Positions 56,299-61,269 of a DNA stretch of 64,000 nucleotides are shown here, piece after piece. The stretch lies in contig NZ_CP007161.1 in assembly GCF_000725285.1 (NCBI RefSeq), positions 2,890,213 through 2,954,212 of the forward strand, given 5' to 3'. The notes beneath the pieces are model-generated. The model was given only the letters and a program-made list of their open reading frames with translations. It was not told the DNA's origin and made no database searches. Position numbers and translations under genes: made by a program. This stretch comes from Virgibacillus sp. SK37 (GTDB lineage: Bacteria > Bacillota > Bacilli > Bacillales > Amphibacillaceae). Each line of letters starts with the position of its first letter. The stretch's first letter is position 1.

Positions 56299-57342
56299 TT
56301 ATCGGTTTAAAGCTGCTCCCTTTTCCTGTGCGGCACGTTTTCTAGGTCGTTGCTTCTTTTCACTATCTATCGGCATCGTTCCATTTTCAATGCCTAATTC
56401 ATCCAACCATCGCCGATAGGCAATGGTAAGTGCATCTGACTTTAAATGCATTTCTGCTTGCAGGTCTAACGGAAGCAATTCCGGCTTTTGGCTTTCTACT
56501 ATATCCAGGTCCTGATAAAAAATTGTATCCTGAAATTCCCTGAATGGCTCGTCGGGCTGATTCAGGTCGTAGTTTCTCGTTAAAAGCATAAAAACATTAC
56601 ATTGCTCATTGTCTTCTTGGTTAACTACTGTCAAAATCGTGAATTCCTCGTCCGACCCCTCTGTTGTTTTCGTAAATCTGGCAGCTGTTGGACTTAAAAT
56701 TTCATATACATAATCTGTATAACCACCTTTTGACCGGCCATCTGCGTTTGGCTGGTATACAGGGATCTTACTTGTAATAAAGCGGCCATCTATAAAATCA
56801 ACATCATAATCTACTATTTCAGCATGCTCCGCATCTCCTAGCATTCCTTCATGTACGAACATTAAATGAGAAACATCAAGGAAATTTTCTATAATTCTAG
56901 GTGCATTTGCTTTTACCTCATAGGAGCCGCAAATAATTGTTCGGTAGCCTTCCTGGTTATATTCCGGATAGTTAATTAATTGGATTGGTTCATCACCAAG
57001 GTTTACCCAAATGAGTCCTAAATACTCCTGACAATGGTACACCGTTGCTTTTGCTTTCTTCGGGATTGGCCGCTCACATGGGAGTGCAGGAATCTTAACA
57101 CACGTGCCCTCTGAATTATATTCCCACGCATGGTATGCACAAACTAAATTCCCATCAACAACTTTACCTAGTGAGAGGGCAGCTCCACGATGAATACACA
57201 GGTCCTTAAAAGCATGAACGCCTTTCTCATTTCGAAAAATAACTACCTTTTCTCCAAGCACGTATACCTGCTTCGGATCTTCTTGCAGTTCCTCCGATTT
57301 ACATACAGGGTGCCATTCGTTCCACAATCTATCTTGCTGCAT
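56299..57342 (-). CDS. Rieske non-heme iron oxygenase, large subunit
   Basis: This 347-aa Rieske oxygenase has the 2Fe-2S motif CIHRGAAL ... CAYHAWEY (C-x-H about residue 45, C-x2-H about 66) and the catalytic domain with bridging aspartate and iron ligands in RIIENFLDVSHLMFVHEG near residue 150. Such enzymes hydroxylate or demethylate aromatic and heterocyclic rings with electrons from a reductase, which is not encoded nearby. It lies directly downstream of a purine permease, so a purine or methylxanthine substrate is plausible (inference). The ATG at 57342 is favoured over 57348, which touches the AGGAGG. Confidence 0.85.
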   Translation of the reverse strand: MQQDRLWNEWHPVCKSEELQEDPKQVYVLGEKVVIFRNEKGVHAFKDLCIHRGAALSLGKVVDGNLVCAYHAWEYNSEGTCVKIPALPCERPIPKKAKATVYHCQEYLGLIWVNLGDEPIQLINYPEYNQEGYRTIICGSYEVKANAPRIIENFLDVSHLMFVHEGMLGDAEHAEIVDYDVDFIDGRFITSKIPVYQPNADGRSKGGYTDYVYEILSPTAARFTKTTEGSDEEFTILTVVNQEDNEQCNVFMLLTRNYDLNQPDEPFREFQDTIFYQDLDIVESQKPELLPLDLQAEMHLKSDALTIAYRRWLDELGIENGTMPIDSEKKQRPRKRAAQEKGAALNR

Positions 57343-57371
57343 AACCATTCCTCCTCAGATAAATTAAATTG

Positions 57372-57429: not shown

Positions 57430-58791
57430 TTACTTACTAACACTTATTGGAATTACGTTACTATCTTGCTTTTTTTCAGGAAGTACGAAATTAAGTACTA
57501 ATGCGGCAATTGCTCCTACGGCTATACCAGAAGAAACAAAGTAAGTTACCAGATTTGGTAACCCATTCGCTATCTCTGCTGGCATAAGAACAGCAGATAA
57601 TGCAAGCATGATAGGAAGTCCAATAACAATCATATTTCTTTCTGTAAATGGCGCATTTTTAATTACTTTAAAACCGTTCATCATAATAACAACACATAAA
57701 ATCGCAAATACACCATTAATTACTGGGGCCGGAATGCTCGCAATAACATTCATGATTTTTGGCATCATTCCAAGTGCAATCAAAATAGCACCACCTGCAA
57801 TAATCGGTTTACGGCTCTTTACACCTGTAATTGCTATGATTCCGGCATTAGAAGAATATCCTGTCACAGGTGTTCCGCCAAAGAAGGATCCAACAAAGCA
57901 ACCAAGACCCTCTCCAAACGCTCCGCCATTTAATCGCTTCCCATCCAGTTTTTCATCCGCTACTTCACCTACCGTAAACCATGTGCCTGTTGTTTCAATT
58001 ACGATAATCAAATAAATGGCAAGCATAATTAAAATCGCATCTATTTCAAATGTTGGTGTACCAAATGCAAATATACTTGGCAAAGCGAACCATGGAACCT
58101 CACTAACATGTGAAAAATCTACAAGACCAAAGAAAGCTGCTACTAAAGTTCCAATTCCTAATGAAAGCATGACAGAAGCTACTTTCATAAATTTAAATTT
58201 TGTTTTCACGTTGTCTCCTATATACATACAAGCAATAAGTACGGCTGCTGTAATGAAAGCAACCAGGATATTCACTTGGAAGCTTCCAGGTGCATTATAA
58301 ATGGAATTAATCGCAGCGGGCATCAGGGAAATCCCTACAACGACGATAACCGTCCCTGCAACAAGTGGTGGAATGAATTTTAATACAAGCTTACTAAATA
58401 TGTTTAACGGTTTGCCAAGTAGAGAAATGAGTATGGCTCCAGGTATCAGACTACCAATCATTGCTCCTATTCCTGATGTTGTGCCAATCGCTGCCAATGC
58501 GCTAATCGGAACAAACGAAGGTCCCTGCATCACAGGCAGCTTCATAGCAAAGCCAGCCTGAATGATTGTTGCAATACCACATGCAATAAACGTCATTTGG
58601 ATCAATAACGCACTATCAGCTACAGAAAAGGATAATAATCCAGCCAATATAATTGGAGGAATAAAGAGGTCCATTGCGAGTACATGCTGTAGTCCAACAA
58701 AGAGCGACTTTCCAACAGAGATTTCTGCTTCCTTATCCTGCTGTTCCACCTCGTTAATTTCTGTTTCTTGTTTTCTAGCTGTGTTATCCAT
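57430..58791 (-). CDS. NCS2-family purine permease
   Basis: This 453-aa nucleobase:cation symporter-2 protein has 14 hydrophobic segments, with VGLQHVLAMDLFIPPIILAG at helix 1, VMQGPSFVPISALAAIG at helix 3, the substrate glutamate in IETTGTWFTVGEVAD near helix 8, and the NAT signature GGTPVTGYSSNAGIIAITGVKSR near helix 10. It imports a purine (xanthine, urate or guanine type). The start at 58791 follows GGAGGGAG; the open frame upstream is leader sequence. The nearest promoter signals are those of the guanine-type riboswitch about 800 bp upstream. Confidence 0.9.
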   Translation of the reverse strand: MDNTARKQETEINEVEQQDKEAEISVGKSLFVGLQHVLAMDLFIPPIILAGLLSFSVADSALLIQMTFIACGIATIIQAGFAMKLPVMQGPSFVPISALAAIGTTSGIGAMIGSLIPGAILISLLGKPLNIFSKLVLKFIPPLVAGTVIVVVGISLMPAAINSIYNAPGSFQVNILVAFITAAVLIACMYIGDNVKTKFKFMKVASVMLSLGIGTLVAAFFGLVDFSHVSEVPWFALPSIFAFGTPTFEIDAILIMLAIYLIIVIETTGTWFTVGEVADEKLDGKRLNGGAFGEGLGCFVGSFFGGTPVTGYSSNAGIIAITGVKSRKPIIAGGAILIALGMMPKIMNVIASIPAPVINGVFAILCVVIMMNGFKVIKNAPFTERNMIVIGLPIMLALSAVLMPAEIANGLPNLVTYFVSSGIAVGAIAALVLNFVLPEKKQDSNVIPISVSK

Positions 58792-58959
58792 ATTTCTAAC
58801 TCCCTCCAATTTATATACATAGGTGATAATAATGAGCTTACGAATAAATTTATTTAGTTCTACTGCAAATACTAGGGCACAAACCTTATCCCGTACATTC
58901 ATAGTAGGAGTAAAATGCGAACTAGAGAAAACTTACTTTTCTTTTTAATGTTAAATAAC

Positions 58960-59155
58960 ACCGCTACGGAAAAATACTGCGTTTTCGGGGGCGGCTGATG
59001 AGCCTCGGGCCAACACGATGTTGGTCATGAAGGCGTTGCGACAGGACGTCGCGACTTTAGCCTTCCAACCCCTATAACGCATTCCGGGGTCTCACCTATG
59101 CCTCATCTCCCCCAGAAGTCTCCGTATTTTTCCTTCGCTAAGGTTTATTTTTTTG
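58960..59155. repeat. Dispersed intergenic repeat, about 195 bp, with inverted ends
   Basis: It starts CCGCTACGGAAAAATAC and ends GTATTTTTCCTTCGCTAAGG, an imperfect terminal inverted repeat. Inside are GGGGGCGGCTGATGAGCCTCGGG and a dyad CAACACGATGTTGG, and it is clearly GC-richer than its surroundings. From memory similar elements are scattered in Bacillaceae genomes. No coding frame is present; it may be a MITE or a REP-like RNA element. Confidence 0.65.
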
Positions 59156-59204
59156 CGAGCTAATAAATATAAATCTTTAAAAAACCTCTATACCAATTGA
59201 TTGG

Positions 59205-59320
59205 AATGAAAGATGACGACTCCTGCCGGAATAGCATGAGCTGAAGACCCTGCACGGAGCGTAGCGGAGGAAGCGGCTGAAGCCATGCCGGCGGAAAGCG
59301 TTCATCTGTAATGGAAATCA
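59205..59320. repeat. Dispersed intergenic repeat, about 115 bp
   Basis: GACTCCTGCCGG ... GAGCTGAAGACCCTGC ... GGCTGAAGCCATGCCGGCGGAAAGCG is a GC-rich, hairpin-forming element. From memory it is a member of a common intergenic repeat of Bacillus-type genomes. It has no open frame of note. Confidence 0.65.
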
Positions 59321-59504
59321 ATGTCGATAGGTGATCTCCTAAGAGTATTAAGACAACTGATTAGCCCCTATAACTCTGCTACAAGTTGAATACTCTCATA
59401 CCTCAAAACACAAGAGCGAAGTGTATTTTCCGAAACGGCCGTCCACTTTCCCGAATCATTGAATAACCCCACCAATATATTAGGAACATTTTCACTACCA
59501 ATAC

Positions 59505-59554
59505 AAAAAAGCCCGGAATACATGCTTTTCTATGAATAAGCATGTATCCCGGGC
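59505..59554 (-). terminator. Riboswitch expression-platform terminator
   Basis: On the minus strand GCCCGGGATACATG and CATGTATTCCGGGC form a near-perfect 14-bp stem followed by TTTTTT, about 60 bp downstream of the purine aptamer. A guanine-type riboswitch would form it when ligand is bound. Confidence 0.85.
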
Positions 59555-59613
59555 CTCGAATGAACCGAAATAAGAATAACATCTAAAGATACATAGACGT
59601 CACCCATACAAGC

Positions 59614-59684
59614 TTTTCATAGTCAGTTCATTTACGGTAAACTGGTAGAAACTCGCAGGCCATATCCCTGCTATTATATGAAAA
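59614..59684 (-). ncRNA. Purine (guanine-type) riboswitch aptamer
   Basis: On the minus strand the P1 arms TTTCATA / TATGAAA enclose the conserved core words TATAAT, GATATGG, AGTTTCTACC, ACCGTAAAT and GACTATG. The hairpins GCAGG/CCTGC (P2) and CAGTT/AACTG (P3) are formed. The specificity base in GACTATG is C, as in guanine/hypoxanthine riboswitches (adenine types have U). Ligand binding should stabilise the downstream terminator and turn off the transcript leading to the NCS2 permease. Confidence 0.95.
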
Positions 59685-59704
59685 ACATCATTAAGTTTGT
59701 CTTT

Positions 59705-59732
59705 AGTATAACATCCATTTTCTATTAAACAA
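59705..59732 (-). promoter_or_regulatory. Promoter of the purine riboswitch transcript
   Basis: On the minus strand TATACT (59705-59710) is a good -10, with TTGTTT (59727-59732) 16 bp upstream as a weak -35. The start of transcription would be about 15 bp before the aptamer. Confidence 0.6.
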
Positions 59733-59904
59733 GTATTTTTTTTGAAAAACTTCTACTCTATCCCTTGTCATAAACCTTGAATCCCTTAATCTATCTAGGT
59801 TTATCTCAAATATTAAAAAGCTGCACAGCCCACTGGACTTCCATATTCCATTCCATTATAATGGCTACTATAATTAACAAAATACGAACAATAAGGTGAT
59901 TGAT

Positions 59905-61269
59905 ATGTATAATTATTCGTTAATTTTTCAAGGAACTGCATTTACAAGCAAATCTGCTAAGGAAATAAATATAGTAAAAGACCATCTCTTTTGTGTTGAC
60001 AATAACGGAATGATTGCAGATGTCCTATCCCCTGAAGATTCACTTTACCACTCCATCATCCAGGAGTACGAAGGCAAAAGTAACTTTTACCGTCTAGAGG
60101 AAGGTCAATATCTTTTACCAGGGTTTATCGATCTACACATTCATGCACCACAATGGGCACAGGCTGGAACAGCTTTGGACCTTCCTTTGAATGATTGGTT
60201 GCAGACATACACCTTTCCACTGGAAGCTAAATTTGAGGATACGACCTTTGCCAAAAAAGTGTATGAAGATCTTGTTCATACATTATTAAAAAATGGGACG
60301 ACCACCGGATTATTTTTTGCTACCGTACACAGAGAAGCAAGCTATCTATTAGCTGAAATATGTGCAGAAAAAGGGCAACGGGGATTAGTTGGTAAAGTAG
60401 TCGCAGATGATCCAGAGCAAAATCCGGATTATTACAGGGACCAGGATGCTGCCACCGCATTAACGGAAACAGAACAATTTATTATCGATGTAAAGGAATT
60501 AGCAAAAACATCCAAACAAGGTGTTTATCCAGTTGTAACCCCAAGATTCATTCCGAGCTGCACCGATGAAGCGCTAAAAGGGTTGGGTGAACTTGCTGCC
60601 AAATATGACACACATATCCAGTCCCATTGTAGTGAAAGCGACTGGGAACATGGCTTTGTTAAAGATCGATTCCATAAAACCGATACAACTGCATTAAACG
60701 ACTTTGGTTTATTACAGGATAAATCAGTGATGGCGCATTCGGTATTTTTGGAAGACAACGATGTGAAATTATTTGCTGAAACAGGCACAGCTATTGGACA
60801 TTGTCCCTTATCTAATGCTTATTTCGCGAACGCTGTGATGCCCCTTCGCCACTTCCATTCCCGTGGTGTGGACATCGGCTTAGGAACAGACATTTCAGCT
60901 GGAGCAACCCCTAGTCTATATGATAATGCAAAGCAAGCAGTCGTATCGTCACGCATGCTGGAGGATGGGGTAGACACCTCCCTCTCTCCCGAAGCGCGAG
61001 GTGTAGACGATTCACGCATCACAATTAAGGAAGCATTTTATTTTGCAACAGCTGGTGGTGGTAAAAGCCTGAGTCTGCCGATCGGTCGTTTGGAGAAAGG
61101 CTATGCATGGGATGTGCAAATTATTAATACAAAAGCAAGTGGAAATACCCTTCCAATTTTTGATGAAAAGGAAGACTTGGATGATGTGTTTCAAAAGATC
61201 ATGTATCTCGTTAAACCCGAAAATATTAAAGAGGTATGGGTGCAAGGGGAAAAAGTAGTAGGTGATTGA
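59905..61269 (+). CDS. guaD: Guanine deaminase (amidohydrolase type)
   Basis: This 454-aa enzyme converts guanine to xanthine. Features of the zinc amidohydrolase fold are PGFIDLHIHAPQWAQAGTALDLPLNDWLQTYTFPLE (HxH metal site near residue 75 and the guanine deaminase substrate loop), SHCSESDWEH (metal histidine), MAHSVFLED and LGTDISAGATPSLYDN (metal aspartate). The ATG at 59905 has AAGGTG 6 bases upstream; a GTG at 59896 lies within that site. It diverges from the purine riboswitch transcript and ends at a strong terminator. Confidence 0.93.
   Translation: MYNYSLIFQGTAFTSKSAKEINIVKDHLFCVDNNGMIADVLSPEDSLYHSIIQEYEGKSNFYRLEEGQYLLPGFIDLHIHAPQWAQAGTALDLPLNDWLQTYTFPLEAKFEDTTFAKKVYEDLVHTLLKNGTTTGLFFATVHREASYLLAEICAEKGQRGLVGKVVADDPEQNPDYYRDQDAATALTETEQFIIDVKELAKTSKQGVYPVVTPRFIPSCTDEALKGLGELAAKYDTHIQSHCSESDWEHGFVKDRFHKTDTTALNDFGLLQDKSVMAHSVFLEDNDVKLFAETGTAIGHCPLSNAYFANAVMPLRHFHSRGVDIGLGTDISAGATPSLYDNAKQAVVSSRMLEDGVDTSLSPEARGVDDSRITIKEAFYFATAGGGKSLSLPIGRLEKGYAWDVQIINTKASGNTLPIFDEKEDLDDVFQKIMYLVKPENIKEVWVQGEKVVGD

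Follow-up and report, generated by a model that had tools for sequence, protein, structure and literature searches.

In Bacillus subtilis, a guanine riboswitch precedes the xpt-pbuX operon, which encodes a purine permease and a phosphoribosyltransferase, and turns it OFF through a choice between a terminator and an antiterminator. A different purine-sensing RNA, the NMT1 xanthine/urate riboswitch, is described in the pertinent part of PMC7373994 as lying upstream of hpxDE-like Rieske-type purine oxygenase genes. Repeats can also be part of bacterial transcripts. The Bacillus cereus repeats bcr1-bcr18 are transcribed in about half of cases, and untranslated regions are among their sites, according to the section of PMC3446304 that deals with them. 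Bacillaceae-1 (RF01690; Rfam type Gene; sRNA) appears in a listing in PMC2864571 as an RNA that is not cis-regulatory, and an enumeration in PMC9029176 counts it among small RNA (sRNA) families.

The window analysed here is a 64,000-nt stretch of the genome of Virgibacillus sp. SK37 (contig NZ_CP007161.1, positions 2,890,213 to 2,954,212). In it, a guanine-type riboswitch and a purine permease gene are separated by repeats. An earlier, sequence-only reading offered two explanations for this distance: an exceptionally long leader, or a repeat insertion that uncoupled the riboswitch from the permease. It appears from sequence comparison and modelled folds that a guanine-OFF transcriptional riboswitch still governs the permease/Rieske oxygenase operon via a repeat-lengthened leader of ~900 nt, a reading to which we give a probability of roughly 0.75. 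In other words, the riboswitch itself is of a familiar kind and unremarkable, repeat insertion explains the distance, and control is most likely unbroken. The aptamer, the terminator, the antiterminator pairing, the conservation, and the short leader of most relatives are computed features. The more novel part of the analysis is a nested-module view of Bacillaceae-1, a copy of which lies inside the leader.

The permease operon and the divergent guanine deaminase gene

The permease gene (57430-58791, minus strand) encodes an NCS2 protein of the Xan_ur_permease type. Its best NCBIfam model is the PbuX xanthine permease, TIGR03173, and the protein is called only PbuX-like because its score of 374.4 bits lies under the cut-off of 414.15 bits. 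A longer in-frame ORF starts at 58902, and this start was rejected because a ribosome-binding site, GGAGGGAG, at 58807-58800 fits the ATG at 58791.

The second gene of the operon (56299-57348, minus strand) encodes a Rieske non-heme iron oxygenase with Rieske and VanA_C domains. A Rieske gene is found downstream of the permease gene in 20 of 20 relatives' loci (L031-L050). On the other side, a guanine deaminase gene, guaD (59896-61269, plus strand), is divergent from the riboswitch operon, and its product scores 411.9 bits against a TIGR02967 cut-off of 375.4 bits. Guanine deaminase of more than 70% identity is encoded upstream in 14 of these 20 loci, and in five there was no match within the fetched stretch. 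In V. chiguensis, a distant amidohydrolase (L044:6545-7627; 25% to guanine deaminase) is encoded between the permease and Rieske genes.

What might the Rieske protein act on? Its nearest solved structures are SxtDIOX/SxtT (1.4e-54) and the methylxanthine demethylases NdmB (2e-40) and NdmA (5e-40). This proximity, together with the hpxDE precedent as given in the same part of PMC7373994, suggests a putative purine-acting oxygenase, which would be under guanine control. Through the conserved riboswitch-permease-Rieske operon, a putative purine oxygenase would then be linked to the sensing of guanine. A search of open-licence papers found none that links Rieske, guanine deaminase, and xanthine permease.

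The riboswitch and its expression platform

The Rfam scan placed a purine riboswitch aptamer (RF00167) at 59701-59600 on the minus strand. It scores 86.8 bits, where the gathering score is 37, and covers model positions 1-102 of 102. Its J3/1 core reads GACTAT, here and in every one of the 32 rows of the locus comparison described below. The ligand-pairing position of J3/1 holds a C, not a U, which we take to mark the guanine type. The aptamer thus has the sequence features of the guanine class of purine riboswitches, and guanine is its predicted ligand. A promoter for the riboswitch transcript is predicted at 59732-59705 on the same strand (TTGTTT, 16 nt, TATACT, with an extended -10 TG).

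Past the aptamer lies an intrinsic terminator (59555-59505, minus strand), whose hairpin of -26.6 kcal/mol is followed by CTTTTTTG. The two arms (59554-59538 and 59527-59511) are 94% complementary, with six T next to them. The earlier claim of a complete guanine-type riboswitch and terminator facing the NCS2 permease is therefore sustained by a full-length model match and a located terminator.

Fold predictions indicate that the terminator and an antiterminator are mutually exclusive, as expected of an expression platform. When the full 186-nt RNA from aptamer to terminator is folded, P1 and the terminator both form (-69.6 kcal/mol). When the RNA ends at the terminator loop, the antiterminator forms: the 3' strand of P1, CUAUGAAAAGC (59622-59612, minus strand), pairs with GCUUAUUCAUAG (59541-59530), which lies inside the terminator and spans its 5' arm and loop. 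The predicted energy of this duplex is -11.6 kcal/mol. The re-pairing involves 9 of 9 P1 nucleotides in all six rows with a long gap before the gene. Of all 32 rows, 27 form 6-9 of the 9 pairs and five (four of them distinct) form none, while P1 is absent from the full fold in three; no long-gap row is among those that lack the antiterminator pairs or P1.

In the mechanism that we infer from these folds, transcription would start at the predicted promoter and guanine would be the signal that shuts it off. Without guanine, the P1 3' strand would pair with the terminator 5' arm and loop, and the polymerase would read through the repeats into the permease gene. With guanine bound, P1 would form, the terminator would fold, and transcription would stop ~720 nt short of the gene. 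Distance to the gene should be irrelevant to the switching because the decision is taken at the terminator.

Dispersed repeats between the terminator and the permease gene

The distance of ~720 bp given in the sequence-only reading holds: about 718 nt were counted from the terminator to the permease ATG, and 808 nt from the end of the aptamer. Most of this gap is repetitive. Counted by distinct places (100 entries correspond to 63 places), 638 of its 718 bases match three or more other places in the same genome, 610 match five or more, and 527 match ten or more. The loci behind these figures came from queries with the gap sequence or with RF01690, so the figures describe repetition and are not an unbiased sample. 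By segment, 58945-59165 has at least 61 own-genome matches and 59180-59335 at least 41 (each from 40 scored candidates), and 59330-59508 has 37, short pieces for the most part.

These matches corroborate the two GC-rich dispersed repeats and the third repeat segment noted before. In the direction of transcription (all on the minus strand), the first is the third, mostly fragmentary repeat stretch, at 59489-59372. It is followed by E2, a GC-rich dispersed repeat at about 59325-59194, and by E1, another GC-rich dispersed repeat at about 59143-58960; each of the latter two was scored at no fewer than 40 places. E1 forms a long inverted-repeat hairpin with arms of 36 nt that are 72% complementary, and it carries a nested Bacillaceae-1 RNA at 59076-59010, co-directional with the leader (67.5 bits against a gathering score of 35, model positions 1-67 of 67). 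An ATG-proximal segment at 58940-58845 also recurs in the genome and is common to the leader of V. halodenitrificans.

E2 and E1 lie close to each other in several copies elsewhere in the genome. In its inverted repeat, its non-coding nature, and its high copy number, E1 resembles a MITE. By eye, no clear target-site duplication was seen in aligned copies of E1 and E2. The position of 30 copies of each repeat relative to ORFs was classed with a crude ORF caller. E1 copies were tandem in 18 cases, convergent in 10, divergent in one, and within an ORF in one; E2 copies were tandem in 16, convergent in nine, divergent in three, and within an ORF in two. The window's own E1 and E2 copies were both classed as divergent. 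The counts, which have no genome-wide baseline, hint that insertions between divergent genes are uncommon. No paper on dispersed repeats in Oceanobacillus and Virgibacillus was found among open-licence papers.

Can the polymerase cross these repeats? Readthrough is uncertain because weaker hairpin-plus-T sites lie inside the gap on the leader strand, with energies of -8.5, -17.4, -9.0, -10.2, and -10.1 kcal/mol compared to -26.6 kcal/mol for the terminator. The strongest of them (-17.4 kcal/mol) has a poor T run, TCTTTCAT. A consensus scan from 59505 to 58791 found no leader-strand terminator, and the same scan also missed the real one.

Leader length and filler in related genomes

The sequence-only reading had proposed a comparison with related genomes to see whether the repeats are insertions. 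Thirty-two permease loci were compared: the window, a congener locus (L002), 20 loci from genome contigs, and 10 from a family search in which 12 of 159 genomes passed 1e-150. Six pairs were alike in gap, identity, and terminator energy and are apparently from the same species, which leaves 26 distinct loci. Permease homologues of 38% identity or less were left out of this riboswitch survey. Rfam scans found a guanine-type riboswitch upstream of the permease and on the same strand in all 32 loci (26 distinct). On this sequence evidence, the partnership between riboswitch and permease is old, because it is present at every one of them.

The distance from aptamer to gene, measured to the start of the protein match, was 114-259 nt in 22 of the 26 distinct loci. 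Only four loci exceeded 500 nt: the window with 808 nt, V. halodenitrificans with 561 nt, V. chiguensis with 558 nt, and L165 with 502 nt. The protein match starts at residue 8 in L044, L164, and L165, so that their true gaps are probably 15-21 nt shorter, and at residue 20 in L041 and L042. Two further features were seen near such loci. A second purine riboswitch (Salirhabdus sp., L033:3113-3214) lies ~1.5 kb upstream of the one adjoining the permease, and a group II intron match of 48 bits (Allobacillus saliphilus, L042:1403-1473) lies near the permease locus.

The long leaders are filled differently. Past the terminator, collinearity between the leaders of the window and V. halodenitrificans is confined to roughly 36 nt at the start and 132 nt at the end, the latter at 88% identity (L031). 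Both contain E2, which is inverted in one relative to the other, with a minus-strand match of 86% over 133 nt to L031. The V. halodenitrificans leader has 63 matches in its own genome and none to E1, and Rfam scans found no Bacillaceae-1 at L031 or L002. The leader of V. chiguensis has no match to the window's gap and is filled by another repeat, with at least 47 matches in its genome (from 40 scored candidates). The L165 leader is nearly identical to that of V. chiguensis, and the two are therefore counted as one lineage. Since relatives' leaders are short and the fillers of the long ones differ or lie in opposite orientation, sequence comparison indicates that the ancestral leader was short and that repeats, themselves subject to turnover, lengthened it in two lineages. 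The insertion of E1 may be young because the sister leader has no match to it.

These comparisons bear on two other explanations. One is that the gap is an assembly artefact or hides an unrecognised gene. Although such repeats are where assemblies err, the genome is in 4 contigs with the locus interior to C1, and the separately assembled V. halodenitrificans also has a long repeat-filled leader. Neither strand of 58903-59504 holds an ORF of at least 60 aa, which speaks against a gene in the window, and the 22 short-gap loci leave no room for the different gene that the sequence-only reading had envisaged between riboswitch and permease in relatives. Both forms of this explanation are exceedingly improbable.

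The other is that the Bacillaceae-1 module or the E1/E2 hairpins add a second control over mRNA stability, processing, or partial termination. Leader-strand folds of the stretches that contain E1 and E2 are strong (-73.5 and -44.3 kcal/mol, respectively, as raw energies with no shuffled baseline), Bacillaceae-1 is a conserved structure, and the account of bcr3 in PMC3446304 correlates its presence in a transcript with mRNA decay in B. cereus. However, the leader of V. halodenitrificans has no match to E1 and an inverted E2, and nothing in that of V. chiguensis matches the gap, so no function borne by E1 or E2 is conserved at the locus. Binding of CsrA by the leader's module was also rejected, since the match in the portion of PMC4333381 that raises this hypothesis is the reverse complement of Bacillaceae-1, which is the other strand here. 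A second control of this kind seems very unlikely.

Conservation of the riboswitch and the question of uncoupling

Does the riboswitch still control the permease? Compared with V. halodenitrificans, the window has one change in the 31 sites of the promoter, one in the 102 of the aptamer, and seven in the 90 of the platform between aptamer and terminator. There are 29 changes in 169 sites of the adjacent intergenic DNA on the guaD side, and 182 in the 515 fourfold sites of three genes (permease, guaD, and Rieske). Against the 29/169 background, Fisher tests gave p 1.0e-5 for the aptamer and p 0.039 for the platform. This is the pattern that a working switch would be expected to leave, and the first genes downstream of it are those of the permease operon. 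The evidence is indirect, since the pattern would look no different if coupling had been lost only recently. In the same comparison, the 125 nt before the ATG differ at 11 sites. This stretch (58930-58792) is largely repeat-derived, yet it has changed no more than that, and the ribosome-binding site alone was seen as a specific reason.

If the riboswitch were uncoupled, the permease would be transcribed from a promoter past the terminator, and the riboswitch would yield a short terminated RNA or a minor share of the message. The scan found one leader-strand candidate there, a weak promoter-like site at 59501-59474 (TTGGTA, 16 nt, TATATT), which has a counterpart with identical hexamers at the corresponding position in V. 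halodenitrificans. Riboswitch conservation would also outlast a recent uncoupling for a while. However, such sites are expected by chance (a mean of 1.98 per shuffled gap and 2.6 per shuffled 1.2-kb region, both strands), and of the 49 aligned bases past the terminator 9 differ, which is the background rate. An uncoupling in the distant past would not be expected to leave the riboswitch strongly conserved between two species. Uncoupling is thus not favoured, and we consider it unlikely.

The sequence-only reading had joined repeat insertion and uncoupling in one alternative. Insertion gains from the short and differently filled leaders of relatives, uncoupling loses ground to the conserved promoter, aptamer, and platform, and the separate promoter directly before 58791 that it had named as a counter-test comes down to one candidate no better than those in shuffled sequence.

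Continued control by the riboswitch, our preferred reading, suggests that hundreds of bases of repeats inserted between terminator and gene do not disable a riboswitch that acts by terminating transcription. Two lineages with different fillers and a conserved aptamer and platform would then constitute a natural test of local, distance-blind switching.

Bacillaceae-1 as a nested module

RF01690 occurs in 43 of 61 relatives, with up to 69 copies in one. In the window's genome, its copies sit inside the two larger repeats. Of 40 scored E1 places, 21 have the Bacillaceae-1 stretch and 19 do not. Alignment of chosen copies shows that the module replaces a short loop sequence in E1, while in E2 it is inverted and inserted after GGAGTC. 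Some copies have a further, third-level insert of 33-34 nt in the module's first loop. Among the best 30 of 48 module matches, 16 have both E1 flanks, four have both E2 flanks, and 10 have one clear flank, where a clear flank is a score of at least 39 (30 shuffled controls reached at most 18). At least one flank thus assigns each of these 30 best matches to E1 or E2.

Similar evidence comes from 20 further module copies in five other genomes (L166-L185), whose flanks were compared by eye. Four of the genomes contributed several copies each; within each of these the same flanks return (as two kinds in one genome), and from one genome to the next they are mostly different. The fifth genome contributed a single copy. 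One flank, gactttttgaaca, is common to two genomes. In two of these genomes, the module-flanking repeats were found at up to 40 scored places, and in one genome (G051) two copies of the host repeat are without most of the module.

One model that accommodates these findings sees Bacillaceae-1 less as a free-standing small RNA than as a hairpin module, presumably mobile, that inserts into other dispersed repeats. It would have two hosts in this genome (the E1 loop and, inverted, E2), each of which also occurs module-free, and genome-specific hosts in other genomes. Its nesting in the riboswitch leader would place two structured RNAs in series on one message. We put this model, in all these parts, at slightly better than even odds, on the strength of aligned copies and their flanks. 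Passages on Bacillaceae-1 from a few open-licence papers gave no description of it as a module nested in repeats. The model has a consequence for Bacillaceae-1 as an orphan Rfam family: should its copies spread as part of composite repeats, neither their number nor their conservation would by itself be good evidence for an sRNA.

Comparison with known systems

Like bcr1-bcr18 of the B. cereus group, Bhal-1, BOX, and RUP, as characterized in parts of PMC3446304 and PMC2267715, E1 and E2 are short, non-coding, multi-copy intergenic stem-loops. The likeness is one of description, not of sequence, and E1 and E2 differ from these repeats in being composite, often side by side, with an optional Bacillaceae-1. 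The module itself departs from the catalogued Bacillaceae-1 RNA in that it is nested here in larger dispersed repeats. As with NMT1, a purine-sensing RNA stands ahead of Rieske genes in the Virgibacillus relatives, but the aptamer class and the ligand are different, the family here being that of the guanine riboswitch.

Another close counterpart is the xpt-pbuX riboswitch of B. subtilis. The window shares with it an RF00167 aptamer with a guanine-type core, an OFF logic as predicted by folding, and a purine permease gene downstream. It differs in that the second gene of the operon encodes a Rieske oxygenase, not a phosphoribosyltransferase, and in that ~718 nt, mostly dispersed repeats, lie between the terminator and the gene.
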